This document shows positions 11,690 through 63,696 of a stretch of DNA of 64,000 bases, piece after piece. The notes beneath the pieces were generated by a model, which did no database searches, was not told the origin of the DNA, and saw only the letters and a program-made list of their open reading frames with translations. The stretch lies in contig CACDIC010000002.1 of assembly GCA_902552805.1 (NCBI GenBank), positions 62,001 to 126,000 of the forward strand, read 5' to 3'. Both the position numbers and the translations under genes were made by a program. How positions within the stretch are numbered: the stretch's first letter is position 1; the number at the start of each line of letters is the position of its first letter. The stretch is from an uncultured Pelagibacteraceae bacterium (GTDB lineage: Bacteria; Pseudomonadota; Alphaproteobacteria; Pelagibacterales; Pelagibacteraceae).

Positions 11690-12654
11690 TTTTTAAAGTC
11701 TAAAAATGTTAATGCTCTTATCAAACTCAAAGGATTAGATTTATTTTTTCCAATCATTTTTTCATTAGGGCCATGGTCAGGAGAAATTCTTAAGAATGGA
11801 AGCCCTAATGTAATATTTATTGCATCATACTCGAATAAAGTTTTTATTGGTGTTAAAACCTGATCGTGATACATACCCAAAATCACATTATATTTTTGTC
11901 TATTTTTTTTTAAAAAAATTGTATCTGCCGCAAATGGTCCAAATATTTTATAATTAGATTTAATTAAAGAGTTTATTGAAGGTCTTATAATTTTTTCGTC
12001 TTCATTATATTTATCAACACTTTCACAATGTGGATTTAAACCCGTAAGGGCTATCAGAGGCTTCTGATAAAAATATTTCCTATAAAATTTATCAATTAGT
12101 TTAACTTTATTTTTAATTGATTTTTTATTGATCTTTTTTGGCACTTTTTTTATTGGTACATGAGTTGTTAAAGGGCAGACTGAAAGATTTTTATTATAAA
12201 TAAGCATAGCAAAATTTTTAGTTTTCGTTTTGTGTGCTAAATATTCTGTTATGCCTAGATATTTTTTATTTAAAAAAAATTTTTTTGAGATAGGACCATT
12301 AATAAACTTATTTGTTATTTTTTGGCTAAGAATTTTAAGCGCAATATCAAATGATTTCTCAATATAATTATTAGATTTATTTGAAATAATATCAAATGCC
12401 TTCTTTTGATTGATATCAACATTAATTAAATTAATTTTTTTATTGTCAAAACTATATTTTTTCAATTGCAAAAAATCGACTAGTCTTATTTTCATCTTAA
12501 TATTTAATTTTTTCATTTGAAGACTAATCAACTTTTGTGAAGCAATAATAACAATAGGACTTTTGTATTTTTTATATTTCAATGATTTAAAAAAAATTTC
12601 TGAAAAAATACTATTTGGTTCTCCAGCAACAATAATTATAGGTTTATAATTCAT
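11686..12654 (-). CDS. pdxA: 4-hydroxythreonine-4-phosphate dehydrogenase
   Basis: Oxidises and decarboxylates 4-phosphohydroxy-threonine in pyridoxal 5'-phosphate synthesis (the DXP-dependent route). The 322 residues show the metal-binding histidines in THVPI and YHDQVLTP, plus GLNPHCES and ISPDHGPN. The start MNYKPIIIVAGEPNSI is typical. It overlaps surA upstream by 11 nt and rsmA downstream by 4 nt, in the conserved surA-pdxA-rsmA order. Confidence 0.95.
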   Translation of the reverse strand: MNYKPIIIVAGEPNSIFSEIFFKSLKYKKYKSPIVIIASQKLISLQMKKLNIKMKIRLVDFLQLKKYSFDNKKINLINVDINQKKAFDIISNKSNNYIEKSFDIALKILSQKITNKFINGPISKKFFLNKKYLGITEYLAHKTKTKNFAMLIYNKNLSVCPLTTHVPIKKVPKKINKKSIKNKVKLIDKFYRKYFYQKPLIALTGLNPHCESVDKYNEDEKIIRPSINSLIKSNYKIFGPFAADTIFLKKNRQKYNVILGMYHDQVLTPIKTLFEYDAINITLGLPFLRISPDHGPNEKMIGKNKSNPLSLIRALTFLDFKK

Positions 12655-13588
12655 AAATTATTAAATCTTTTTTTAATTTGTTAAAATACATACTGGAAAA
12701 TTGATTAAGTTGGTTATTTGTTTTAAATTTTATGACCTCTTCTATTTTTTCAGCTAAATTAAATTTTGATTCGTATTCTTTTGTGTCTTCAATTTTAATA
12801 ATCATAAAGCCGGATGATGTTCTTATAGGTTCAGAAAATTCTCCAGGGGGTAATTTTGAAATAATTTTTTTAATATTTTGATTTAAATTATCTTCTTTGA
12901 TCCATCCAATAAGTCCACCATTAGATGCGGTATCGGAATTACTATGTATAAGTGCAGTTTTTTTAAATCCTATATCTTTAATATCAAACAGAATTTTTTC
13001 GTATTTATTTTTAAAATCTTTTTTTTCATTTACATTAAAAGTTATTTCCGAAAGTAAAAATTCTCTTTGACGCTCTTTTTGGGGATTTTGTAATATTTCA
13101 TTTTTTATCTTTTCTTTGTCAATTATTACTTGTTTATTAAACTTTTTAAAAATTAGATCATTCCATATTAATTCAATATAAAGTTTTTCTTTTATATGTC
13201 CTATATTTAAGTTATTTTTTCTTAAATAATTTTCAAAATTTTCAATAGTATTAATAGTTATCTTTGGATATTTATTTTTAATGAATAATAGTAAAAATTT
13301 ATCATCAACTTTTAAATTTTTTACAAAATTTAATATTTCGGTCTTTTTAATTTTATCTCTTAAGATCGAATTTTTTGATACTTCAAATAATTCTGATTCA
13401 TTCAAATTATTTATTTCAGGATTAAATATTTTTAAGAATCTTGTTTCCTCGTAAATATCAATTGTAGTAATAATTTCATTATTTACTTTAAATAAGATCT
13501 TATTTTCAAAAGAAAATGAATTTTCAATATAAAAAAAATTTATTAATAAAATAACAAATAAAACTTTAAATTTTTTTGCTAAGTTCAT
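12644..13588 (-). CDS. surA: SurA-like periplasmic peptidyl-prolyl isomerase
   Basis: An outer-membrane-protein chaperone. The 314 residues have an N-terminal signal segment (FKVLFVILLINFFYI), a SurA N-terminal helical domain, and one parvulin domain near the C-terminus with GGLIGWIKE and LPPGEFSEPIRTSSGFMIIKI (core GEFSEPIRTSSG). E. coli SurA has two parvulin domains; one is usual in alphaproteobacteria. I chose the ATG at 13588, 4 nt after the lptD stop; the longer frame starts with TTG inside lptD. Confidence 0.88.
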   Translation of the reverse strand: MNLAKKFKVLFVILLINFFYIENSFSFENKILFKVNNEIITTIDIYEETRFLKIFNPEINNLNESELFEVSKNSILRDKIKKTEILNFVKNLKVDDKFLLLFIKNKYPKITINTIENFENYLRKNNLNIGHIKEKLYIELIWNDLIFKKFNKQVIIDKEKIKNEILQNPQKERQREFLLSEITFNVNEKKDFKNKYEKILFDIKDIGFKKTALIHSNSDTASNGGLIGWIKEDNLNQNIKKIISKLPPGEFSEPIRTSSGFMIIKIEDTKEYESKFNLAEKIEEVIKFKTNNQLNQFSSMYFNKLKKDLIIYEL

Positions 13589-13592
13589 TTTG

Positions 13593-16019
13593 TTAATTTG
13601 CAAATTTTTGTTCAACTGAAGTTAATGGAACTAATTTTAAGCTTAACATGAAGTCTTCAGTTGGCTCTAAGTCTCTATCTTTATAATATGTTTTGTTGTA
13701 TTTAATACCCGCAACTAAACAATCATTTTTATATTCATAAATTAGATCATAATACTCAGTAAGATCTATTTCTTTATTATCTCTTGTTCTAAATGTAATA
13801 AAGTTTTGTTTATCAAAATTAAAAGTTGTAACATTTTCTAAAATATTTGTGCTTCCAATAACTCCCTCTTCTTCAATATAATTAAATGTTGTCGTAAAAT
13901 TGTTTTTTGAAATGGTAGTTCCAAATGAGCTATATTGAATTTCATCCAAATCATGATTGATGGAAAATTCATAATTTAAATTTATATTATTATTTAAATT
14001 ATTTGTAAGTTTACCAAAATAGTTTGAGTTTTTTTTATCAAGCGTACTATTAGAAGGGATATTATTGTTTGGTTTTGTTCTTATAACTTTACCTAGTTTT
14101 AGCTCGAAGTATTTATTTATATTATCTATCCTCTCTTTTTTGTAATCTAATCCTAGTGTTAAATTTTGTCCTGGCTCTAGTGCATCTGTCAAACCTAATC
14201 TATTTATATTGAATATATTTTCGCTATTTATTTGTCTTTTTTCATTTTTGTATCCTTTCATATCTGAAGGATTTATTCTTAAGGATAATTTTGGATTTAA
14301 ATAGTTTACAAAATTTCCATTAATATTTACGAGTGGAAAGCTTGATGATACCTCAAAAATGTTCATAAATTTAACATGTGGACTAGAGTCATATTCAATG
14401 TTGTTTTTACCAGCAGTAATTGTATTTTTTAGATAATAGTTAAAATTGTTTTTAAACCCATTTTTAGAAAAAAAATCAAAACTTTGGATATTTAAATTAT
14501 TAATCATTCTTGATCTGAGACTGTTTGTATCTTTTAAAATATTATCACCTTGTGAAAAAAAATTAAATGAGGCTAAATTATTATTATAAAAGTTTTTTGA
14601 GAAATCATAATAAGGTAATACATATTGATAACGATCACTATTTTGTTTAGAGAGATTTTCATAAGCAGTGAAACCGGTATTTAATGTAAATTTTTCATTC
14701 TCTAAATTTAAATCTATTTCAGAGGTTAAGGTATCAAAATTATCTGGCTTAAGATCAGTATTTACTATATTTGTATCAAAGACCTTAAGATAAGTATCAC
14801 TATTTACTTTCTGAAATGAAATGTTAATCGAACTATCAATAAAATTTTCGTAATCCAAATTTATTTGAAAGTTAGAAAATACATGAGTTAAAGTATTTTC
14901 TTTTTTTGTTTTTTTTGATTTATAGCCATCTACAATATTAAAGTCAGTTATAAAATATGAATTCTTATTCTTTTGTCTATACTCATTTTGAAACATAAAA
15001 ATATTTTTATCAAAAATTGTTGGCTTAAAAGTAATATCTTTATTATCAGATAATGCGAAAAAATATGGTATTTGAATTGATGAACCGAGCACATTCGAGT
15101 TATTAATATGAGGAACTAAAAAACCTGTTTGCCTTTTTACTGTCGGTCCTGGGTGAAAAAATTTTGGAAAATATAAAATAGGAAAATCATATACTTTTAC
15201 CAAAGCATTATTATAAAATATTTGTTTTTTATTTTCATCGTAAGTAATCTTCTCAGCTTGAATAGACCATGGTGGACATTTGTCATTTTTTTTACAGCTT
15301 GTAAATACACCCTTGTTAATTGTTGTAATTCCATTTTTTTTTGTTGAAGATACACCCTTAAATCTAGGATCATTATTTTTATTACCAAATATATCTTTTT
15401 TAAAATCAATATTAATATCTTGAGCAACATAATTTTGGTTTTTGATGTTTAAAACAGCACTTTTAAAAAAATATTTATCACTAAAGGGCTGATTGTATTT
15501 TGTATTAACAAAAATATTTTCACCTTTTAAGACTTCTTCATTTAAAGAATAGCTAAATTTTCCTAATTCATATCTTGTTTGATTAATATTATCTAAAATT
15601 GTTGCACCCATATCTGAACTAATAATCATATTATCTCTAAGAATAGTTATACTCTCAGTATTAAATCTATAATTAGCGTCAAAAACAGCCTCTACTTTTC
15701 CTTCAAGTACAATTTTTTCCTCACTTTTGAAGTATAAAATATTTTGTGCTGAAAAATTATAATTATTAAGTTTATCTTTAACAACTATGTTACCATTAGC
15801 TTTAAGTGTGTTTTTTATTTTATCGAACTCAAATTTATCTGCTTCAATTATGATTCCATCATTTGTATTTATTGTTCCTCTGTTTTTACCAACTATAATA
15901 TTACCATCTTCTAAAATTTCTATTTCTGTTACATCAAAACTTATTTGATCATTACTTTGCACATGAAAAATTATTAAATTAAAGATTAATAAGAAAAATA
16001 TTATAGTTTTATTTATCAT
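13593..16019 (-). CDS. lptD: LPS-assembly protein LptD
   Basis: The outer-membrane beta-barrel that inserts lipopolysaccharide into the outer leaflet. The 808 residues have a signal peptide (IIFFLLIFNLIIFHVQS), an OstA/LptA-like domain (about residues 25-200, with GRNKGTI-like turns and ANGNIVVKD), then a long barrel with many alternating aromatic strands and the PILYFPKFFHPGPTVKRQTG segment (core PKFFHPGPTVKRQTG) that is strongly conserved in LptD. It follows lptG and precedes surA, the standard order. Confidence 0.93.
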   Translation of the reverse strand: MINKTIIFFLLIFNLIIFHVQSNDQISFDVTEIEILEDGNIIVGKNRGTINTNDGIIIEADKFEFDKIKNTLKANGNIVVKDKLNNYNFSAQNILYFKSEEKIVLEGKVEAVFDANYRFNTESITILRDNMIISSDMGATILDNINQTRYELGKFSYSLNEEVLKGENIFVNTKYNQPFSDKYFFKSAVLNIKNQNYVAQDINIDFKKDIFGNKNNDPRFKGVSSTKKNGITTINKGVFTSCKKNDKCPPWSIQAEKITYDENKKQIFYNNALVKVYDFPILYFPKFFHPGPTVKRQTGFLVPHINNSNVLGSSIQIPYFFALSDNKDITFKPTIFDKNIFMFQNEYRQKNKNSYFITDFNIVDGYKSKKTKKENTLTHVFSNFQINLDYENFIDSSINISFQKVNSDTYLKVFDTNIVNTDLKPDNFDTLTSEIDLNLENEKFTLNTGFTAYENLSKQNSDRYQYVLPYYDFSKNFYNNNLASFNFFSQGDNILKDTNSLRSRMINNLNIQSFDFFSKNGFKNNFNYYLKNTITAGKNNIEYDSSPHVKFMNIFEVSSSFPLVNINGNFVNYLNPKLSLRINPSDMKGYKNEKRQINSENIFNINRLGLTDALEPGQNLTLGLDYKKERIDNINKYFELKLGKVIRTKPNNNIPSNSTLDKKNSNYFGKLTNNLNNNINLNYEFSINHDLDEIQYSSFGTTISKNNFTTTFNYIEEEGVIGSTNILENVTTFNFDKQNFITFRTRDNKEIDLTEYYDLIYEYKNDCLVAGIKYNKTYYKDRDLEPTEDFMLSLKLVPLTSVEQKFAN

Positions 16020-17082
16020 TTATATTTTTAATTAATAAAGCATTAATTATTGTAAGAATAATTAAAGGAATAAAAACAGAGCTTACAACATTTACTTTTT
16101 CTGTAGTTCCTAAGATATAAAAAAAGTTATTGATGTAATAAATTATTACAGACAAAAAAAGCCCAATTATCACTTTAAGACTTTTACTTTTAAAAGTTTT
16201 GGTATTCATCATAATAATCGCAGAAAAAATAAACATCAAAATAAAATAAAAAGGAAATGAAATTAGCTTAAAAAGTTGAAGATCTATTTCTGTTAAAGAA
16301 TAATTAAGTTTTTTATAGTTTTTTCTCATTTCAATGAGCTCAATAAAAGATAAAGAAGACATATTTGAAAATAAATTTTGTATCAATTTATAATCAAAAT
16401 TAGTTTTGAATTTTAATTTTTCAATTATCTCTTTATTATTTTGAACATAAATTTCTGCATCATTTATTATCCATTCTTTATTTGTTATATCGACCTTTTG
16501 ACTTTTAATATTTCTTATAATCTCAAAATTTTTGTCAAATTCTGAGATATAAGTATTGATAAGTTCATTATTATTAAATGAGCTTGCATTTATCATTAGT
16601 ATTTTTTCATTATATATATCTTTAATCCATAAACCATTATTAGTTATCACAGCAAGATATTTCTTATCATCAGTATAATTAGATTTTAATCCTAAATATA
16701 AATTTTTAAGATTCGAGGATAAATTATAAAAAATAGAAATTATTAAAATACCAATAAAAAAAGTTGTAGTAGCTAAAATTGAAAATATTTTTGAATTTTT
16801 AAGTCCAGAGTATTTAAAGATATTAATCTCATTATCTGTAAAAAGAGTATTAAAAAAGAATTGAGTTGATATTAAAAAAATGAATGGAAACATTTCAAAA
16901 ACAAAAATTGGTGTATTTATAAGTGATAAATATAGCGGAAAATAAGTTTTAACATCTGTTTGTTTAAAAAATTCTAGCTCTGTAAGAAGATTTAGTACGT
17001 ATATTAAACAAAAAAAAATAAAAAAAACATTTAAAAAAGAAATTATATAAGTTTGCACTAAAAATTTTGTATATGTATTCAT
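16009..17082 (-). CDS. lptG: LPS export permease LptG
   Basis: One of the two inner-membrane permeases of the Lpt bridge that extracts LPS from the inner membrane, powered by LptB. The 357 residues show an N-terminal pair of membrane helices, a periplasmic beta-jellyroll-like middle (about residues 130-250) and three C-terminal helices. The start overlaps lptF by 4 nt (ATGA) and the end overlaps lptD by 11 nt. Assignment as LptG rather than LptF rests on gene order and is an inference. Confidence 0.9.
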   Translation of the reverse strand: MNTYTKFLVQTYIISFLNVFFIFFCLIYVLNLLTELEFFKQTDVKTYFPLYLSLINTPIFVFEMFPFIFLISTQFFFNTLFTDNEINIFKYSGLKNSKIFSILATTTFFIGILIISIFYNLSSNLKNLYLGLKSNYTDDKKYLAVITNNGLWIKDIYNEKILMINASSFNNNELINTYISEFDKNFEIIRNIKSQKVDITNKEWIINDAEIYVQNNKEIIEKLKFKTNFDYKLIQNLFSNMSSLSFIELIEMRKNYKKLNYSLTEIDLQLFKLISFPFYFILMFIFSAIIMMNTKTFKSKSLKVIIGLFLSVIIYYINNFFYILGTTEKVNVVSSVFIPLIILTIINALLIKNINDK

Positions 17083-18215
17083 TCTTGAAAATTTTCATTT
17101 TTAAATCTAATAAAATAATTTAAGTAAATACTTACTACTAAAATTATTGGTATCATAAAAAATTTGATATTTTTTACTAAATCTTGATTTATCAATCTAA
17201 TCGTCATTTCTGATAGAATAATTGTACTAAAACCAATTAAGAAAATTATCATTCTGTATCTTGAGTAATTGATATTTTCTTTAGATTTAAATATTAACAT
17301 TAATGAAATAAGTATTAATACAGGAATATATAATGGAATTATAATTCGTTTATATAATTCTTTTATTATATTTTCTACATTATCTTTTCTACAATTTTCC
17401 ACTTCGAAATTTTTATCAATTTTAAGTAAATTTAAATTCATTAAGTTGTGATAACATTTTACAAGATCTAATGTAGCTACTTCTTGAGTTTTTTTATAAG
17501 TCGTCGTGTTATCTTCGAAATTACTTAAGTTAAAATCTGTCTTTTTAAATTTAAAGTTAGTTATCTTATCATTGATTACACTGATTGTTTCTCCAAAATT
17601 TAATTCTAAAAATTGGTTTTTACCAATTTGTTTAAATTTCCCTTCTTTTGCAAAAGTTATTTGAAAATTATCTCCAGTCCCTTTTTTGAGATAAATTTCT
17701 TTTAAATTTCCCGACTCATCTTTAGAGTTACTATAAATTGTTAAACCCTTGACAGCATCATTAAATATCCGCGGTTTGATAAAATTTTCTAAATAGTTTA
17801 TTGATGAAGCTCGTAGGAAAGATCTAGCTAAGTCCTGACTTTTTGGAACAACTATAGATGTTAAAAAAATTTGAAATAGCATTATAAATAATGAAAATTT
17901 TACAAAAAAATTTATAAGTTCGATTTTGTTGACACCAAAATTCCAAAAAATTATTAATTCATTTTTTAATTCATATTTTCCAACAACATATATAAAACTT
18001 AAAAATAAAATGAATGGTATTAGTTTGCTTATTACTTTTGGAAAATTTAATAAAGAAAAATTTAAATAAACTAAATAATTTCTGCCATCTTCAACAATGA
18101 TATCTAGGAAGTTCACAGCTTGAAATACCCATATGATAATTCCTGAGGAAAAAAGGGTTATGAGAAAAAAAACCAGACAATCAGATAGTAGCTTTCTAAA
18201 TAATATTTTTTTCAT
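17079..18215 (-). CDS. lptF: LPS export permease LptF
   Basis: The partner permease of LptG in the LptB2FG transporter. The 378 residues have the same layout: helices near the N-terminus (FLITLFSSGIIIWVFQAVNF), a GKYELKNELIIFWNFGV segment typical of YjgP/YjgQ proteins that contacts LptB, a periplasmic domain, and a C-terminal helix group. It is the first gene of the envelope operon and is transcribed away from pepA across an 82-nt AT-rich gap. Confidence 0.9.
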   Translation of the reverse strand: MKKILFRKLLSDCLVFFLITLFSSGIIIWVFQAVNFLDIIVEDGRNYLVYLNFSLLNFPKVISKLIPFILFLSFIYVVGKYELKNELIIFWNFGVNKIELINFFVKFSLFIMLFQIFLTSIVVPKSQDLARSFLRASSINYLENFIKPRIFNDAVKGLTIYSNSKDESGNLKEIYLKKGTGDNFQITFAKEGKFKQIGKNQFLELNFGETISVINDKITNFKFKKTDFNLSNFEDNTTTYKKTQEVATLDLVKCYHNLMNLNLLKIDKNFEVENCRKDNVENIIKELYKRIIIPLYIPVLILISLMLIFKSKENINYSRYRMIIFLIGFSTIILSEMTIRLINQDLVKNIKFFMIPIILVVSIYLNYFIRFKNENFQE

Positions 18216-55112: not shown

Positions 55113-56036
55113 TTATCTATAACCTTGAGCTGCCCATTTAATTACTTTAGACGCATTGTCAGGAGTAACAAACCCAGGTCCAGTCATTACTACACCTGCT
55201 GGCATTGTTCCCCATCTCATATATTGTCCAAAGATAGCTATTGGTAAATATCCTTGTAGATATTGCTGTTGGTCAATTAAAAACTCTACCTTTCCTGCAG
55301 CAGCAGCTTTTAACATATTTGGAGACATATCAAATGTTCCTAATCTTACAGAACCAACTTTTCCAGCTGACTCAAGTGCTTTCAAAGCTGCTTCACCAGA
55401 CAATCCAGCACCTAAAGTTAGAATAGTGTCATAGCCACCACCTAATTTTGCAGCAACAGCCTTTTGAATTTCTGTTGGGTCATTTGATGTACCTAAAATA
55501 TCAACAGATCCACCAAAACCTTTTTTGAAACCAGCACATCTTCTATCAAGTGCAACGTTTCCTACCTCATGGTTAACACATAATGCTTTTTTTCCACCAG
55601 CGGCTTTCATTTTTTGTCCACCACCTACACCTGCTTCAAACTCAGTTTGTCCAACGTGTGCACTAATTCCTAAAGATGCATAATCATCAGAACCAGAGTT
55701 CATTGATATTACAGGAATACCAGCAGCAATCGCAGCTTTAACTGATTTTCCTAAAGCAGCAGCATCCGGTAATGTTATCACAATACCTTTCGGTTTTTGT
55801 GATACAGCATTATCAATTAATTTTGCCATTTCTACCATGTCAAAAGTAGCTGGTGCTGTGTATTTGCAAGACACTCCCATGTCTTTACATCCAGCATCAA
55901 CTCCATTTTTAGCAACTGACCAGAAAGGATCGTTTGCTTGACCATGAGAAACCACAATTATATCTACAGCTAAAGCAGATACAGACATCATTGCCCATGC
56001 AGCTAAAGCTAATATAAAGTTTTTTATTGTTTTCAT
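55113..56036 (-). CDS. Periplasmic sugar/cyclitol-binding protein
   Basis: Substrate receptor of the importer. The 307 residues have a signal peptide (FILALAAWAMMSVSALA, cleavage after ALA) and a type I periplasmic-binding fold: DIIVVSHGQANDPFW, PKGIVITLPDAAAL, GIPVISMNSGSDD and a NHEVGN turn. It belongs to the ribose/inositol-binding group. The iol genes next to it suggest myo-inositol or a close relative. AAGGGGA precedes the ATG. Confidence 0.92.
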   Translation of the reverse strand: MKTIKNFILALAAWAMMSVSALAVDIIVVSHGQANDPFWSVAKNGVDAGCKDMGVSCKYTAPATFDMVEMAKLIDNAVSQKPKGIVITLPDAAALGKSVKAAIAAGIPVISMNSGSDDYASLGISAHVGQTEFEAGVGGGQKMKAAGGKKALCVNHEVGNVALDRRCAGFKKGFGGSVDILGTSNDPTEIQKAVAAKLGGGYDTILTLGAGLSGEAALKALESAGKVGSVRLGTFDMSPNMLKAAAAGKVEFLIDQQQYLQGYLPIAIFGQYMRWGTMPAGVVMTGPGFVTPDNASKVIKWAAQGYR

Positions 56037-56137: not shown

Positions 56138-57139
56138 TTAAAGATTAAGTTTTTCAAACTTTTTTGATCGTAAAGATTTTTGAGCTGCATTCGCAATTAT
56201 TAGAGCTTTTCTTCCCTCTTCGAATCCTGCAAGAGGTTGAATTTTCTTTCTTATATATTTCGCAAAATCCTTTAGTTGATTTTTATATGCATCTTTATAC
56301 CTCTCAATAAAAAAATTAAGCAAAGGAGATTTGTTCGAAGTTGATTGTGCAGAATATAAAGATGTCTCGTTTTGTCTTTTATTTTCTGAAATTAACATAC
56401 CTTTTGATCCAAATAATTCTATTCTTTGATCATAACCGAAACTACAGTGTCTGGAATTAGTTATTATGCACTGAACACCAGCTCTAGATCTAATTATGGT
56501 AGATGCTAATTCAAAATCTTTTATTTTATCAAATCTTTTGTCTGATATGTTGCTACCAGAAGCTATTATTTTTACAGGCTCATCATTACCAAGGTAGAAT
56601 CTAACAAGATCAAAATCATGGATCATCATATCTCTAAAAATACCACCAGATTCTTTTAGATATTTCATAGTTGGTGGGGCAGGATCACGACTAGTGATAA
56701 TAATTTTTTCTAATTTACCTATTTTTCCACTAAGTAATTGTTTTCTTAAATTATTGTGTGTTGGATCATATCGTCTATTAAAACCTAATTGTATTTTTGG
56801 ATTTAATTTATTAATTTTTTTTTTACAGGACTCAATTTTTTTAATACTTAAATCCAGTGGTTTTTCACAAAAGATAATTTTTCTATTTTTAACACCATCT
56901 AAAATAAATCTAATATGTGTCGATGTTGTTGAGGCAATAAAAACAGCTTTTATATTTTTGTCTTTATAAGCTACAGATGGATTGTTAATAGCTTTTGTTT
57001 TTAATGTTTTTGAATATTTTTTTGATAATTTTTGTTCAATGTCATAAATATATTTAAGATTAAAATCTTTACTACGCATTAAATTTTTTCCATGCATAAT
57101 ACCAATTCTACCAAGTCCAAATAAAGCTATATCAATCAT
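56138..57139 (-). CDS. iolG: myo-Inositol 2-dehydrogenase-like Gfo/Idh/MocA oxidoreductase
   Basis: Oxidises myo-inositol to 2-keto-myo-inositol with NAD. The 333 residues have an N-terminal Rossmann fold (ALFGLGRIGIMHGKNL), the EKPLDL motif with the catalytic Lys, and the substrate domain with GFNRRYDP and SGGIFRDMMIHDFDLVRFYLG (core GGIFRDMMIHDFDL). The last motif is typical of inositol dehydrogenases. It is divergent from iolE across 44 nt and lies upstream of the ABC genes on the same strand. Confidence 0.87.
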   Translation of the reverse strand: MIDIALFGLGRIGIMHGKNLMRSKDFNLKYIYDIEQKLSKKYSKTLKTKAINNPSVAYKDKNIKAVFIASTTSTHIRFILDGVKNRKIIFCEKPLDLSIKKIESCKKKINKLNPKIQLGFNRRYDPTHNNLRKQLLSGKIGKLEKIIITSRDPAPPTMKYLKESGGIFRDMMIHDFDLVRFYLGNDEPVKIIASGSNISDKRFDKIKDFELASTIIRSRAGVQCIITNSRHCSFGYDQRIELFGSKGMLISENKRQNETSLYSAQSTSNKSPLLNFFIERYKDAYKNQLKDFAKYIRKKIQPLAGFEEGRKALIIANAAQKSLRSKKFEKLNL

Positions 57140-57183: not shown

Positions 57184-58086
57184 ATGTCAGTAAAATTAGG
57201 AGTTGCACCCATTGCATGGAGTAATGATGACATGCCTGAGTTAGGTGGTGAAACTACATTAGAACAATGTTTAAAAGAAGCCAATGAAGCAGGCTATATA
57301 GGCATAGAGTCTGGTGGAAAATTTCCAAAGAAATCTTCTGAATTAATTCCAAAATTAGATCAATTTAATCTTAAACTTTGCTCAGGATGGTATGGCGCAA
57401 ATCTAAGAAAAAATTCTGTTGAGGAAGAAAAAAAATCCATTCAAGAACAACTAAATTTATTTAAAGATTGTAATGCACCTTGTATAGTTTTCGCAGAAGT
57501 TTCTGGCTCTATACAAGGAGACCCTAACAGAAAATTATCAACTAGGCCTCAAATGGAAAAGGATGAATGGCAGAAGTTTTGTGAAAAAATTTCTGAACTA
57601 GGAAAATATTTAGAGGATGAAGGAATGCCATTGGCATATCACCATCATATGGGAACAGTAATTGAAACTCAAAAAGATACTGAAAGACTTATTGAAAATA
57701 CCCATGAAAGTGTAAAATTAACACTAGATACAGGACATATGTTATTTGCCAAAGGGGACTCAAAATCCATATTACAAAATTATCATGAAAGAATTTTGCA
57801 CGTCCATTGTAAAGATATAAGAAAACAAGTTCTTGAAAAATCTTTAAAAGAGGATTTAAGTTTTAGAGGTGCTTTTTTAGAGGGTGCTTTTACAGTACCA
57901 GGGGATGGTTGTATTGATTATCAACCTTTATTTAATGTGTTAAAAAATAATAATTACTCAGGATGGTTAGTAGTTGAGGCAGAGCAGGATCCAGCAAAAG
58001 CAAATCCGTTAGAGTATGCAAAAATTGGTTATAAATATCTTACAGATACATTAAAAAAATCTGAAATTGAAATTTATAAAAATTGA
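57184..58086 (+). CDS. iolE: 2-keto-myo-inositol (inosose) dehydratase
   Basis: Dehydrates 2-keto-myo-inositol to a trihydroxycyclohexanedione, step two of inositol breakdown. The 300-residue TIM barrel begins LGVAPIAWSNDDMPELGG, a clear IolE signature, and has the metal-binding AYHHHMGTVIE, TLDTGHM, HVHCKDI and a final VVEAEQDPAKANP. It abuts the convergent pilin-like gene with no gap. Confidence 0.94.
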   Translation: MSVKLGVAPIAWSNDDMPELGGETTLEQCLKEANEAGYIGIESGGKFPKKSSELIPKLDQFNLKLCSGWYGANLRKNSVEEEKKSIQEQLNLFKDCNAPCIVFAEVSGSIQGDPNRKLSTRPQMEKDEWQKFCEKISELGKYLEDEGMPLAYHHHMGTVIETQKDTERLIENTHESVKLTLDTGHMLFAKGDSKSILQNYHERILHVHCKDIRKQVLEKSLKEDLSFRGAFLEGAFTVPGDGCIDYQPLFNVLKNNNYSGWLVVEAEQDPAKANPLEYAKIGYKYLTDTLKKSEIEIYKN

Positions 58087-58587
58087 TTATCTATAGAGTG
58101 AAGTAAGTTCATTATTTCCAGCGGCAACACATGGAGATTTAAAACAAGTACCCACAACCCATTCAGAACCAGGATCAGGTAAAAAACTTGATGACATCAC
58201 AAATATAACACCCATCTCAACTGATTGCCCCGCTCTACCTTCCGCTTTAATTCTAGGATCAGGATCAGTTTTTACTTTAGTATCCTCTGAAAAAGGATTC
58301 TCTATATTAAGATTTTTGTTTATATAATTCACAACTTTAGATGAAGACCATTCGTCATTGCAGGGGTCACCCCAAACAGTCAATTTACCTTCATCATTGT
58401 TCCCACAATTATTTATTTCTCCATTAATAAAATCAACTACTTTCTTATGATTTTCTTTAACTAAGTTAGCTTTTGCTTCAACGGCGGGTCTTGTACTTGC
58501 AGTCCAGATCAACATACCAACCACATATACCAACGATAACAACACTAATACTTCTAATAGTCCAAAATTTTTGAAATTTATTCGCAT
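58087..58587 (-). CDS. Type IV pilin-like protein of unknown role
   Basis: A 166-residue protein. A short polar start (MRINFKN) is followed by FGLLEVLVLLSLVYVVGML, which resembles the pilin N-terminal helix: if Phe8 is residue +1, Glu12 is the conserved +5 Glu. The residue at -1 would be Asn instead of the usual Gly. An amphipathic helix (about 31-60) follows, then a globular part with cysteines at 61, 76, 148 and 153, which could form two disulfides. I do not recognise the exact family. It lies among inositol genes and is 2 nt downstream of the hydroxyacid dehydrogenase gene. Confidence 0.6.
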   Translation of the reverse strand: MRINFKNFGLLEVLVLLSLVYVVGMLIWTASTRPAVEAKANLVKENHKKVVDFINGEINNCGNNDEGKLTVWGDPCNDEWSSSKVVNYINKNLNIENPFSEDTKVKTDPDPRIKAEGRAGQSVEMGVIFVMSSSFLPDPGSEWVVGTCFKSPCVAAGNNELTSLYR

Positions 58588-58589
58588 AA

Positions 58590-59555
58590 TTAAAATTTAA
58601 TAATTTTTGATTTGTCTAATTTTTTTTCAAAAAAATCAATTATATTTTGTATTGTTTCTTTTCCCATTCTTATCATGCATTCCTCAGTAAATGCAGCTGT
58701 ATGAGGACTTAAAAAAACTTTATTGTTTTTTAGCAAAGGATTATCCTCTTTAGGTGGTTCTGTCTCAAAAACATCTAAACCTGCACCAAATATAAGACTT
58801 TCATTTAATGCTTTATCTAAGTCATTCTCATTAATCATCCCTCCTCTTGCAGCATTTATTATTATACAATTTTTCCTCATTGTTTTAAGTAGATCATAAT
58901 TAATAATATTTTTTGTTTTCTCGTTAAGAGGCATATGTAAAGAAATGGCATCCATAGATTTTACTGCTTCTGTAAGATCCTCAACTTTTTTTCCACCCAA
59001 TCCCTCAATAATATCTTTTGAAACAAATGGATCATAAACAAAAACATTCATTTCAAATCCTTTGCATCTTCTGATTAAAGATTGACCTATTCTTCCAAAT
59101 CCAGCAATTAAAATATTTTTTTTCCAAAGTTCAATTGTTTTTGGAAGTTTGTTTCTATTAGAAAAATTTCCTGTTTTAACAGCTTCATCATACATGTTTT
59201 TTCTTTTCGATATATTGAGTAACATAAACATAACATGTTCTGCCACCGCAACAGCATTTGCTGTAGCCGTAATTGCTAAGGTGATATTTTTTTCTTTAGA
59301 AGACTTGAGGTCAATATTGTCGTACCCAACGCCGTGGCGAGATATAATTTTAAGTTTTTTTGATATATTAATTAATTCATTAGATAAATTTGCTGTTCTA
59401 ATTGACAAACCATCACACTCCAAAATTTTTTGTTTAATATTCTTGTCATCTATATTTTCAACAATCTCATAATCATAATTTGGGTTATTCTTTATAAGAT
59501 CTATCCCCGCTCTATGAATAGCTTGAATTATTAAAATTTTTTTTTTATCTGACAC
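58590..59555 (-). CDS. D-isomer-specific 2-hydroxyacid dehydrogenase
   Basis: Reduces or oxidises a 2-keto/2-hydroxy acid with NAD(P). The 321 residues have the catalytic Arg in SRHGVGYDNID, the Rossmann GFGRIGQS, the Glu in VFETEPP and the His in SPHTAAFTEE. The family includes phosphoglycerate and hydroxypyruvate/glyoxylate reductases. Its placement beside an HpaI aldolase and an aldehyde dehydrogenase suggests a role in sugar-acid breakdown. It is 6 nt from the aldolase gene. Confidence 0.9.
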   Translation of the reverse strand: MSDKKKILIIQAIHRAGIDLIKNNPNYDYEIVENIDDKNIKQKILECDGLSIRTANLSNELINISKKLKIISRHGVGYDNIDLKSSKEKNITLAITATANAVAVAEHVMFMLLNISKRKNMYDEAVKTGNFSNRNKLPKTIELWKKNILIAGFGRIGQSLIRRCKGFEMNVFVYDPFVSKDIIEGLGGKKVEDLTEAVKSMDAISLHMPLNEKTKNIINYDLLKTMRKNCIIINAARGGMINENDLDKALNESLIFGAGLDVFETEPPKEDNPLLKNNKVFLSPHTAAFTEECMIRMGKETIQNIIDFFEKKLDKSKIIKF

Positions 59556-59561
59556 TTAAAT

Positions 59562-60353
59562 TTAGTAAGCTTTAGAGTCTTCTTTTGATTTAGTTGATTT
59601 TAATTTAGATACAGCATCTTTTGCACCTGCACTCATATACCTTTGATCGGATCCTATAGTTACTAAATTAAATCCTAGATTAAGCATTTTCTTAGCATAC
59701 TCTGGAGTAGCATTATGTATACCCGCGAAAATTTTATTTTTTTTTGCATGTTCTAAGATTTTCAAAATCTTTTCATAAGTTGGGCTTCCTTCAGGATTAT
59801 CAAAAGCAGGTTTTTGACCTATAGCCAGACTTAAATCAGCAGGTCCAATGTAAATTCCATCTATTCCAGGTGTACTCATAATTTCATCTAATTTATCCAA
59901 GGCCTCTTTTGTCTCTATCATTGCCATTTTTAAAATCTCATCATTTGCAAAATCTCCATAATCTAAACCCCCATAAATTAATCCTCTAATTGGTCCAAAA
60001 CTTCTATACCCTTTAGGGGGATACATGCATGCTTGAACAAATTTTTCTGCTTCAGATTTGTTACTCACCATTGGACAAATTATACCGTAGCATCCAGCAT
60101 CTAAAATTTTCATTATTTGTCCTGGCTCATTCCAATTTACTCTTGCTAAAGGAGTAACATCCGTAGATGAAATTGATTGCAGCATTTGTAATGCATTTGG
60201 ATAATCTATAACACCATGTTGCATATCAATTGTAAGCGAGTCCCAACCTTGATGAGACATTACTTCCGCTGAAAAAGAGCTAGGAATTTGTAACCAGCCA
60301 TTAATTATTTGCTCACCATCTTTCATCATCTTTTTTATTTTATTTGGTCTCAT
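59562..60353 (-). CDS. HpcH/HpaI-type class II aldolase
   Basis: A metal-dependent aldolase that splits 2-keto-3-deoxy or 4-hydroxy-2-keto acids into pyruvate or a relative plus an aldehyde. The 263 residues show WLQIPSSFSAEVMSHQGWDSL (core GWDSLTIDMQHG), the CPMVSNKSEAE region, GYRSFGP and GIYIGPADLSLAIG. It lies 1 nt after the aldehyde dehydrogenase gene and 6 nt before the hydroxyacid dehydrogenase gene. The physiological substrate is not known. Confidence 0.9.
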   Translation of the reverse strand: MRPNKIKKMMKDGEQIINGWLQIPSSFSAEVMSHQGWDSLTIDMQHGVIDYPNALQMLQSISSTDVTPLARVNWNEPGQIMKILDAGCYGIICPMVSNKSEAEKFVQACMYPPKGYRSFGPIRGLIYGGLDYGDFANDEILKMAMIETKEALDKLDEIMSTPGIDGIYIGPADLSLAIGQKPAFDNPEGSPTYEKILKILEHAKKNKIFAGIHNATPEYAKKMLNLGFNLVTIGSDQRYMSAGAKDAVSKLKSTKSKEDSKAY

Positions 60354-60354
60354 T

Positions 60355-61797
60355 TTAAGATTTCAAACCAAGGTGAGTGTACTTTATATTAAGATAATCT
60401 TTAATTGCCATTGAACCACCTTCACGTCCATATCCAGTTTGTTTAATTCCGCCAAAAGGTGCTTCGGCTATCGCAACTGCAGGGGTATTTACCGCAACAG
60501 TACCGGTTTCCATTAATTCTGAAGCTCTGTGAGCTTTATCCATAGAATTTGTATAAATATAACTACATAATCCTAAGTCATTATTATTAGCTCTTTCAAC
60601 TACTTCATCAAAAGTTTTAAATGACAACATTGGAACTAAAGGACCAAATGGTTCTTGTTTCATTATTGTGAAATTGTCCTTTACATTATCAAAAACTGTT
60701 GGCTCATAAAAATAGCCTTTGTTAAAACCTTGAGGTCTTTTTCCACCCAGTAAAACTTTTGCTCCTTCCTTTTTAGTTGTTTCAACTAATTCTTCGATTT
60801 CTCCTAATCTTTTTGCAGTTGTTAGAGGACCTAATTGAACTCCCTCATCTAAACCATTTCCAATTTTTAATTTTTTTGTTCTTTCAATAAACGCATTAAT
60901 GAATTCGTCTTTTTTATTTTCTTGTATATAAAATCTGTTAGGTGAAATACAAACTTGACCATTATTTCTAAATTTTGCAGTAATTGCCATATCTGCAACT
61001 TTATTTATATCAACATCATCAAAAACTATAAAAGGTGAGTGTCCACTAAGCTCCATTGTGACTCTTTGAACTTTGTCTGCGGCCTTTTTTAAGATTAATT
61101 TACCTACTCTTGTTGATCCAGTAATTGAAACCTTTTTAATAATATCAGACTCTAACAACTCATTTGAAATACTTTCAGGATCTCCTGATAATAAGTTTAC
61201 AACTCCAGGAGGGACTCCTGCTTCTTTACAAATATCTACTAACTCCATTACTGTTCCTGGAGTAATTACATCAGGCTTACAAATTACTGAACATCCGGCA
61301 GCTAATGCTGTTGAAATTTTTCTTGCTGCTAGAATTAAAGGAAAATTCCATGGCACTAAAGCTGCTACAACTCCAACTGGCTGATAATAAACATGAACTC
61401 TCGTACCTGGAAATCGACTTTCGACTGTTTGTCCATAAATTCTTTTTGTTTCTTCAGCATTCCACTCAAAAATATCAGCAGCCCCACCAGTTTCGCCAAT
61501 TCCCTCTGCTAAAGGTTTTCCAACTTCAATCGTTAACCATTTTGCTAAAACATCTTGTTTTTTTCTTAAAAGATCAGCAATTTTTCTAATAATATATGAT
61601 CTCTGCCAAGGTAAAGTGTTTTTCCAAACTTCCAAACCTTTCTCTGCAGATTTAAGAGCTTTTTGAACATCTGCTGAAGACGCTTTAGACGCCTGGCCAA
61701 TAATTTCTTCCGTAGCAGGATTTATAACATCGTAAGTTTCTTTTTTTTCCGCTTGTTGCCACTTACCATCAATGAACTGCCCAAATTTACTATACAT
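60355..61797 (-). CDS. Succinate-semialdehyde-type aldehyde dehydrogenase
   Basis: The 480 residues include PWNFPLILAARKISTALAAG (core PWNFPLILAARK), KVSITGSTRVGK, MELSGHSPFIVFDD and the catalytic Cys in NNGQVCISPNR, typical of GabD-like enzymes. It is not the CoA-dependent methylmalonate-semialdehyde type (IolA). The usual ELGG motif reads ELSG. The ATG at 61797 fits the family; the longer frame adds 37 residues. It heads the ALDH-aldolase-dehydrogenase run and is divergent from iolD across 54 nt. Confidence 0.9.
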   Translation of the reverse strand: MYSKFGQFIDGKWQQAEKKETYDVINPATEEIIGQASKASSADVQKALKSAEKGLEVWKNTLPWQRSYIIRKIADLLRKKQDVLAKWLTIEVGKPLAEGIGETGGAADIFEWNAEETKRIYGQTVESRFPGTRVHVYYQPVGVVAALVPWNFPLILAARKISTALAAGCSVICKPDVITPGTVMELVDICKEAGVPPGVVNLLSGDPESISNELLESDIIKKVSITGSTRVGKLILKKAADKVQRVTMELSGHSPFIVFDDVDINKVADMAITAKFRNNGQVCISPNRFYIQENKKDEFINAFIERTKKLKIGNGLDEGVQLGPLTTAKRLGEIEELVETTKKEGAKVLLGGKRPQGFNKGYFYEPTVFDNVKDNFTIMKQEPFGPLVPMLSFKTFDEVVERANNNDLGLCSYIYTNSMDKAHRASELMETGTVAVNTPAVAIAEAPFGGIKQTGYGREGGSMAIKDYLNIKYTHLGLKS

Positions 61798-61851
61798 AAT
61801 TTTTATTTTATGGTTAATTAAGCGAAATTTTAAGAGAATATATCTACAATT

Positions 61852-63696
61852 ATGAAAAAAATAAAGCTTACATGTGCTCATGCAATCGTAAAGTTCCTGA
61901 CTTCTCAAAAAATTCTTATCGATGGTAAAAAAGAACCTTTATTCGCTGGTGCTTTTGGAATATTTGGTCATGGTAATGTAGCTTGTTTAGGACAAGCTTT
62001 AGAGGAAAATAAAGATAAACTTCCAACTTATAGAGGTCATCATGAGCAAAACATGGCTTTAACAGGAATTGCTTACGCTAGAGCAAAAAGAAGAAAACAA
62101 GTATTTGTAGCAACAAGTTCTGTAGGTCCTGGTTCTACAAATATGGTAACAGCTGCAGCAGTTGCAATGAGTAATAGACTGCCAATTTTATTTCTTCCGG
62201 GCGATACTTACGCAAACAGGATGCCTGATCCAGTTTTACAACAAGTAGAACATTTTAATAATCCAGGAATTACTCAAAATGATGCTTTTAAACCGGTTAC
62301 AAAATATTTTGATAGAATAACTAGACCAGAACAAATTTTACAAACATTTCCCCAAGCTGTTCAAGTTTTGCTAGACCCAGCTGATTGTGGTCCAGTATGC
62401 ATATCTTTATGTCAGGATATACAAGGAGAAATTTTTGAGTATCCTGAGGATTTTTTTAAAGAAAAAATCCATAATATACGAAGACCAAGACCTGATGATT
62501 TTCAAATTAAAGAAGCAGCTGAAAAAATAAAAAAATCAAAAAATCCAATCATAATTTCTGGTGGAGGTGTTTTTTACTCTGATGCAATGGAGGAACTTTC
62601 TACTTTTGCAGTTAAACACAATATACCTGTAACACAAACTGTAATGGGTTATTCTTCTATGAAAAGAGATCATTCTCATTTTTTAGGACCTATTGGAGGT
62701 TTAGGAGGAAAAGCAGCAAACAACTTTGCAAAAAAAACTGATTTAGCGATTGCTATTGGAACTAAGTTAGGAGATTTCACAACTGGGTCATGGTCCAATT
62801 TTGAAAATCCAAATTTTTCACTAGTATCAATTAATGTTGCAAGATTTGATGCTAGTAAGCATATGGCACAATCAATTATTGGAGATGCAAAAGTTTCTTT
62901 AAACGAACTATCACAAGCTTTAGGTGATTGGAAAGCATCCGAGGAATGGCATAAAAAATCCAGAGATGAACTTAAATCTTGGAATGAATATGTTGATAAA
63001 GAAAGTGGACCAACTAATCAAAAACTCCCAAGTTATGCTCATGCAGTTGGTGCAATTTATAGAAACTCTGATCCAAGTGATATCGCTGTCACTGCAGCTG
63101 GAGGTTTGGTAGGTGAAGTTGTTCAAATTTGGAGACCAAGAGAACTTAATACTCATGAAACAGAGTGGGGTTTTAGTTGTATGAGTTATGAAATTTCTGG
63201 AGCTTTAGGAATTAAAATGGCCAATCCAAACAAAGAAGTTATCACCTTTGTAGGTGATGGATCATATTTACTTTATAATTCAGATATATATTCATCTGTA
63301 ATAACTAATAATAAACTAATTGTAATTGTCTGTGATAATGGTGGTCACGCTGTCATTAATAGACTTCAATTATTTAAAGGTGGAAAAGAATTTAATTGTT
63401 TGTTTGAGAGTTCAAATGTTTCAAATTTAGTAAAAGTAAATTTTGCAAAACATGCAGAAAGTATGGGGGCAAAGTCTGAAGAGGTAAGTTCTATCAGTGA
63501 ATTAGAGGAAGCTTTCAAAAGAGCTAAGAAATCAAAAGTGACTTACGTTATTTCAATTAAAACTCATTCGTATCAATGGCTTGAAGGATCAGCTTATTGG
63601 GAAAGTCCAACTTTAGAAATTCCCAAAACCAAAGAAAACGAAAAAGCTCTAAAATTACACAAAGAAGGTAAAGCAAAACAAAGACAGGGAGTATAA
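61852..63696 (+). CDS. iolD: 3D-(3,5/4)-trihydroxycyclohexane-1,2-dione hydrolase
   Basis: A thiamine-diphosphate enzyme that opens the cyclohexanedione ring to 5-deoxyglucuronic acid, step three of inositol breakdown. The 614 residues have IolD-typical FGIFGHGNVACLGQAL, the catalytic Glu in YRGHHEQNMALTG, LPGDTYANRMPDPVLQQ, and the cofactor-binding FVGDGSYLLYNSDIYSS with CDNGGH. It is followed 5 nt later by a Gfo/Idh gene. Confidence 0.96.
   Translation: MKKIKLTCAHAIVKFLTSQKILIDGKKEPLFAGAFGIFGHGNVACLGQALEENKDKLPTYRGHHEQNMALTGIAYARAKRRKQVFVATSSVGPGSTNMVTAAAVAMSNRLPILFLPGDTYANRMPDPVLQQVEHFNNPGITQNDAFKPVTKYFDRITRPEQILQTFPQAVQVLLDPADCGPVCISLCQDIQGEIFEYPEDFFKEKIHNIRRPRPDDFQIKEAAEKIKKSKNPIIISGGGVFYSDAMEELSTFAVKHNIPVTQTVMGYSSMKRDHSHFLGPIGGLGGKAANNFAKKTDLAIAIGTKLGDFTTGSWSNFENPNFSLVSINVARFDASKHMAQSIIGDAKVSLNELSQALGDWKASEEWHKKSRDELKSWNEYVDKESGPTNQKLPSYAHAVGAIYRNSDPSDIAVTAAGGLVGEVVQIWRPRELNTHETEWGFSCMSYEISGALGIKMANPNKEVITFVGDGSYLLYNSDIYSSVITNNKLIVIVCDNGGHAVINRLQLFKGGKEFNCLFESSNVSNLVKVNFAKHAESMGAKSEEVSSISELEEAFKRAKKSKVTYVISIKTHSYQWLEGSAYWESPTLEIPKTKENEKALKLHKEGKAKQRQGV

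Follow-up and report, generated by a model that had tools for sequence, protein, structure and literature searches.

A type IV pilin paralogue of Pelagibacteraceae that lacks a prepilin-peptidase site and is probably retained as an uncleaved membrane-anchored protein

Introduction

The stretch of Pelagibacteraceae DNA analysed here (the window, 64,000 nt) carries, within an inositol locus, a small open reading frame whose product begins like a type IV prepilin but has Asn where the leader of a prepilin ends in Gly. The sequence-only reading of this DNA offered two accounts of such a protein: a membrane-anchored surface protein that is never processed, or a pilin cut by a peptidase that accepts Asn. 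Literature searches, with most subscription journals outside their reach, returned no description of this protein family. We asked what kind of protein the gene encodes, whether the family has kept a processing site and the machinery that would act on it, and which neighbour the gene is tied to.

Results

A small gene behind a metabolic gene run

The open reading frame (58087-58587, minus strand; stop codon 58087-58089) encodes a pilin-derived protein of 166 aa with the N-terminus MRINFKN followed directly by FGLLEVLVLLSLVYVVGMLIW. The translation bore out the Asn at -1, the Glu at +5 and the four cysteines (residues 61, 76, 148 and 153) noted in the sequence-only reading. Residues 1-7 (58567..58587) form a short basic tail, predicted to be cytosolic from the positive-inside rule, and end with Asn7 (codon 58567-58569) at the -1 position. 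A predicted membrane helix spans residues 8-29 (58501..58566), with a hydropathy maximum of 2.5 over 19 residues starting at residue 9, and includes Glu12 (codon 58552-58554), the counterpart of Glu5 of pilins. Residues 30-166 (58090..58500) make up a pilin-like ectodomain that contains all four cysteines and closes with a segment (residues 140-166, 58090..58170) that is near-invariant across 131 distinct proteins, GSEWxxGTCxKSPCVAAGNNELxSxYR.

The frame begins 2 nt past the stop of the upstream gene, which ends at 58590 on the same strand, so that its description as lying 2 nt downstream of a metabolic gene was correct. Its own stop abuts that of the convergent iolE at 58086 (myo-inosose-2 dehydratase, 57184..58086, plus strand; 415 bits against a cut-off of 290). 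Along the minus strand the gene order is an aldehyde dehydrogenase (60355..61860; best model SSADH, 483 bits, under its cut-off of 646), an HpaI/GarL-type aldolase (59562..60353; HpaI model, 163 bits, under its cut-off of 369), a 2-hydroxyacid dehydrogenase family gene (58590..59555; best model PGDH, 265 bits, under its cut-off of 454) and then the pilin-derived frame. Nearby are iolG (inositol 2-dehydrogenase, 56138..57139, minus strand; 357 bits against 355), iolD (61852..63696, plus strand; 805 bits against 715) and a sugar/inositol-type ABC substrate-binding protein (55113..56036, minus strand; rhizopine SBP model, 316 bits, under its cut-off of 420). NCBIfam cut-offs were thus exceeded by iolE, iolG and iolD, and no listed NCBIfam model reached its cut-off for the dehydrogenase, the aldolase, the aldehyde dehydrogenase or the substrate-binding protein. 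By these sequence matches, the inositol locus around the frame is real. A promoter and terminator scan gave 45 promoter-like sites (30.3 expected) and three terminator-like sites (3.1 expected). Measured in 2-kb steps, G+C in the window drops to 0.21 at 12001-14000 and to 0.20 at 16001-18000, against 0.22-0.37 elsewhere.

A conserved family under purifying selection in Pelagibacteraceae

Orthologues were identified in 106/297 Pelagibacteraceae genomes (E <= 9.5e-60). A match at E <= 1e-3 was present in 136 genomes; the 30 weak ones (best E 8.9e-10 or worse) were left out as orthologues, and those that were read proved to be ordinary pilins. A sample of the order gave matches at 1e-8 in 83/297 genomes, all but G348 (family f2) in the family of the window, and the weak matches fetched (G348, G254 and the second match of G004) were ordinary pilins in 3/3 cases. 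In the class sample 2/385 genomes matched (E <= 1e-10), that of the window and a second from its genus. Viral contigs yielded 31 pattern matches, none of which codes for a relative, and plasmids gave no match. Within the searches made, the family therefore appears only in Pelagibacteraceae (SAR11).

Residue counts below refer to 186 loci, namely the 106 orthologues and the best 80 of 165 contig loci; the contig and genome collections come from separate releases of the same taxonomy and very likely share members, which makes the 131 distinct proteins the fairer count. Selection was estimated by NG86 in 12 pairs. In 12/12 pairs dN was well below dS, with dN/dS of about 0.04-0.16, and dS exceeded 1 (saturated) in seven of them. 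Four of these pairs joined genomes with neither PF01478 (prepilin peptidase) nor PF00482 (PilC) detected and gave about 0.06-0.15 (L139/L146, ~0.06; L133/L137, ~0.08; L141/L148, ~0.11; L134/L136, ~0.15). The spread of orthologues through the family and a dN far below dS in every pair confirmed, at the level of sequence comparison, that the frame is a real gene under purifying selection and not a chance product. SAR11 genomes are strongly streamlined, which makes a conserved but useless gene unlikely.

One divergent relative was found in G376 (183 aa, L256:3916-4467, minus strand; E 4.7e-42), where it adjoins an aldehyde dehydrogenase. Its N-terminus, KEYDFIE, places Glu at -1 and keeps Glu5, and Gly+2 is lost.

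The constant neighbour is a 2-hydroxyacid dehydrogenase

The dehydrogenase was found in 106/106 orthologue genomes (E <= 1e-80). Neighbours were counted in 130 of the 186 loci, the remaining 56 having been fetched as short stretches. In 129/130 the gene immediately upstream, in the same orientation, is the dehydrogenase, and its gap to the pilin relative is -8 to +2 nt in 129/130. One locus (L056) is the sole one of the 130 in which the match to the dehydrogenase breaks off early, at residue 264 of 321, and represents either a pseudogene or a sequencing error. The reverse dependence does not hold: 33/139 genomes have the dehydrogenase without a pilin relative, so the enzyme seemingly does not depend on it. 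Among 18 such dehydrogenase-only loci that were fetched, 11 have a convergent iolE within ~85 nt and seven have another gene next.

We also considered the iol genes as the fixed partner and rejected them. No iolE lies downstream in 6/130 loci, and some lineages keep the pair apart from iol. Five of the six (L133, L134, L136, L137 and L138) extend ~3 kb or more downstream with no match to the iol proteins of the window; the contig of the sixth (L145) runs out after ~0.7 kb. The placement within an inositol locus thus stands for the window, but at least these five loci break any constant link to iol, and on sequence and gene order it is the 2-hydroxyacid dehydrogenase that is the constant neighbour. 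Such a fixed order may reflect inertia in streamlined genomes rather than function.

Homology to SAR11 type IV pilins

A search of the window's own genome returned a pilin as the sole other match (29% identity over residues 4-81, E 0.002), and in profile-profile comparison the orthologue family matched 57 SAR11 pilins. When the helix was cut off and the ectodomain only (from residue 36 on) was compared with these 57 pilins by hhalign, the score was 92.4 (E 2e-17, for a single comparison); 60 column-shuffled controls averaged 10.1 and peaked at 19.4. The alignment register was then scored without the N-terminal motif, on mature residues 31-54 only, past the membrane span. Offset 0 was best in 54/57 pilins, which identifies Asn7 as the -1 site. 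The window protein shares a Cys at mature position 54 with 52/57 pilins, and a C-terminal TC-x-x-x-x-C pattern is common to the orthologues and the SAR11 pilins in the profile alignment. These sequence comparisons showed homology to SAR11 type IV pilins in both the globular domain and the helix, in support of the pilin or pseudopilin resemblance first proposed.

No Pfam family matched the window protein at E <= 10, N_methyl (PF07963) had no match at the locus, and the best hit of a PDB sequence profile search (E 0.11) was unrelated. An NCBIfam match to PRK15216 (E 0.0025) reached 17 bits where the cut-off is 452, and was dismissed. A quick tree with long branches split 18 orthologues and the G376 paralogue from the 57 pilins by a branch with support of 99, with the orthologues alone supported at 66; the G376 protein, on a long branch, grouped with the orthologues and not with the pilins.

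The closest likeness is to the SAR11 type IV major pilins (L100:14284-14811 in the own genome, and relatives), which share a gap-free register from -1 to Cys54, Glu5, the long N-terminal helix and, in the profile, NP(F/Y) and the C-terminal TC....C, as well as NH at 39-40 in 24/57. Differences of setting and sequence stand beside these. The major pilin pair of the own genome sits in a pilus locus and several relatives sit in tandem arrays, whereas the window protein is encoded behind the dehydrogenase; and the C-terminal 27 residues, the most conserved part of the window protein family, align with a C-terminal Cys loop that is variable in the SAR11 major pilins. This conservation points, on sequence grounds, to a fixed binding partner.

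The tandem arrays themselves hold different pilin genes, eight in ~6 kb in G348 (L257:71-5923), with others in L153, L151 and L154, and suggest a rapidly varying pilin cassette. Beside the pilin genes of the own genome, an ammonium-transporter domain seems to be fused with a phosphatase domain of SpoIIE/RsbU type (L100:15371-17533), near STAS-like and anti-sigma-kinase-like genes (L100:13116-14134); both were named by reading.

Structure prediction was of low confidence. AlphaFold2 gave a mean pLDDT of 50.1 and pTM of 0.45 for the full length (31-row alignment) and 52.5 and 0.59 for the ectodomain (29-row alignment), both alignments being shallow, with 84-99% identity. The full-length model, at that pLDDT, has a helix at 8-59, a short helix and strands near 127-131 and 144-148; such a model is compatible with a pilin and is not evidence for one. 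Foldseek with both low-confidence models returned chance matches only, and VIA-align with the low-confidence model (pLDDT near 50) found nothing among 58 chains.

The processing site is absent across the family

A type IV pilin carries a class III signal peptide: a short hydrophilic leader that ends in Gly (Ala in some), a hydrophobic tract of ~21 residues and Glu5. The window protein has the leader, the tract with Glu at +5 and the homologous globular domain, but not the terminal Gly. Across the 186 loci the -1 residue is N in 175, K in eight, D in two and S in one; G or A occurs in 0/186 loci and in none of the 131 distinct proteins. By comparison, a scan of 15 loci gave 52 FTLIELLVVVAI pilins, which have G (36) or A (16) at this position. 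The 16 with Ala are otherwise typical SAR11 pilins (L151, L152, L154, L157 and L162). Glu5 is present in 186/186 loci.

According to the review PMC4471445, outside archaea the leader invariably ends in Gly; processing depends absolutely on this Gly and can dispense with Glu5. The minor pilins of the own genome (FimT/PilV/PilW/PilX type; L099:7127-10431) share a membrane helix with a hydrophobic tract, but their genes belong to the pilus locus and each of the four leaders, as read, ends in G, and the window protein has neither feature. One of them, the PilX-like protein (L099:9736-10431), keeps Gly-1 and lacks Glu5, the reverse of what the window protein shows.

Pilus machinery is present in the own genome and undetected in most relatives

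The window itself contains no prepilin peptidase, T2SSE ATPase or N-methyl pilin over cut-off, in line with the remark that no pilus genes are near; a pilus locus does exist elsewhere in the genome. The search for pilD and pilB that had been proposed found a prepilin peptidase (PF01478), two T2SSE ATPases and five N-methyl proteins over cut-off, all on contig C6 and none on the contig of the window. From sequence and gene order, further C6 frames were read as a secretin, PilB, PilC and two pilins, and others were named by reading as PilT, FimT/PilV/PilW/PilX-like minor pilins, a PilY1-like protein and PilM/N/O/P-like proteins. Pili and pilA induction are reported for starved, dark-grown HTCC1062 in PMC3090418, and pilin genes of the same strain appear in the hypervariable-region tables of PMC2217521.

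Family-wide the picture differs. PF01478 was detected in 70/297 and PF00482 in 71/297 family genomes. Among the 106 orthologue genomes, 25 have both, three PF01478 only, one PF00482 only and 77 neither, so that a prepilin peptidase was detected in 28/106 and went undetected in 78/106. Many genomes are 60-90% complete assemblies, and part of the absent machinery is missing data. The distribution is uneven: in the genus of the window the peptidase was found in 23/30 orthologue genomes, and in genera g2-g4 in 5/76, where completeness would predict ~62 for a universal gene. Eighteen orthologue genomes that are >=90% complete have neither PF01478 nor PF00482 detected. No T2SSE match over cut-off was found in these 18 (13 had sub-cut-off matches of 17-21 bits), and no N-methyl pilin over cut-off either; the single match among the 19 genomes searched was in G134, outside the 18, which has no detected peptidase yet has pilins and part of PilC. 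One genome (G003), a single contig that is 99% complete, has no detected peptidase and an orthologue that is 98% identical.

Discussion

A pilin paralogue that is probably uncleaved

Taken together, these data make it probable that the protein is a type IV pilin paralogue that lost its prepilin-peptidase site and was exapted as a permanently uncleaved membrane-anchored protein. The unprocessed membrane anchor is thereby favoured over the other account first offered, on the strength of the N, K, D or S at -1 and the many orthologue genomes in which no peptidase was detected.

An uncleaved, membrane-locked pilin might still act on the pilus, by seeding, capping or restraining its assembly through Glu5. 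The pilus genes of the own genome, the retained Glu5 and the exact pilin register would fit such a subunit. The gene is kept, however, with dN/dS near 0.1, in lineages with no detected pilus genes, so acting on the pilus cannot be its general role, and we regard this explanation as improbable.

Processing by an Asn-tolerant SAR11 prepilin peptidase, which would let a genuine minor pilin join type IV pili, is quite unlikely. The own genome does hold the peptidase, both ATPases, the N-methyl proteins and, as read, PilC, a secretin and other pilus proteins, and the invariance of Glu5 would suit a filament subunit. Tolerance of Asn would have to extend to K, D and S, with G and A never used; the gene sits behind a dehydrogenase in all but one of the loci examined for neighbours; and orthologues are kept in genomes with no detected peptidase or PilC, the 99% complete single contig included, so an Asn-tolerant peptidase cannot explain the family.

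That the pilin likeness is convergent, in a simple signal-anchor protein, is very unlikely. A basic tail before an N-in membrane helix would give much the same look in any protein, and Pfam gave no match; but the ectodomain alone matches SAR11 pilins far above the 60 shuffles, and it shares Cys54 and the C-terminal TC-x-x-x-x-C with them. Least tenable is a shifted cut after Gly+2 to give the new N-terminus LLE: Gly+2 is present in 186/186 loci, but it is kept where no prepilin peptidase was detected, is followed by Pro in 50/106 orthologue genomes and is missing from the divergent G376 relative, and Glu would fall at +3, contrary to the register common with real pilins.

A possible mode of action

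For the uncleaved pilin paralogue, the basic tail and the positive-inside rule suggest that the Sec pathway would insert the protein N-in/C-out with a single inner-membrane span. The basic tail of 6-10 residues would stay cytosolic and the pilin head, with its disulphides, would face the periplasm; a place at the inner membrane, on its periplasmic face, is a simpler reading than one at the cell surface. Presumably never cleaved or methylated, the protein would not be extractable into a filament by the standard route, and no polymerisation by that route is expected. Glu5, at the cytosolic membrane border, might be kept for helix-helix contact or for seating the helix, which is a guess. Equally a guess, the near-invariant C-terminal segment might bind a fixed periplasmic ligand or partner tied to the hydroxyacid or polyol chemistry of the dehydrogenase. 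A receptor or accessory unit for the substrate of the dehydrogenase is the role that we would guess first, while giving it a rather low chance. The fuller proposal, that uncleaved subunits associate through the Glu5 helix and that the C-terminal loop forms, in the periplasm, a receptor or accessory unit for the compound on which the co-translated dehydrogenase acts, is more doubtful still.

Significance

Annotation of these genes could say either hypothetical or pilin, and "pilin" would wrongly imply pili in cells that have none. Filament assembly and N-methylation are the usual explanation for Glu5. In this family the residue never varies in the absence of a cleavage site and is kept without detected filament machinery, and another role for Glu5 thereby becomes testable.
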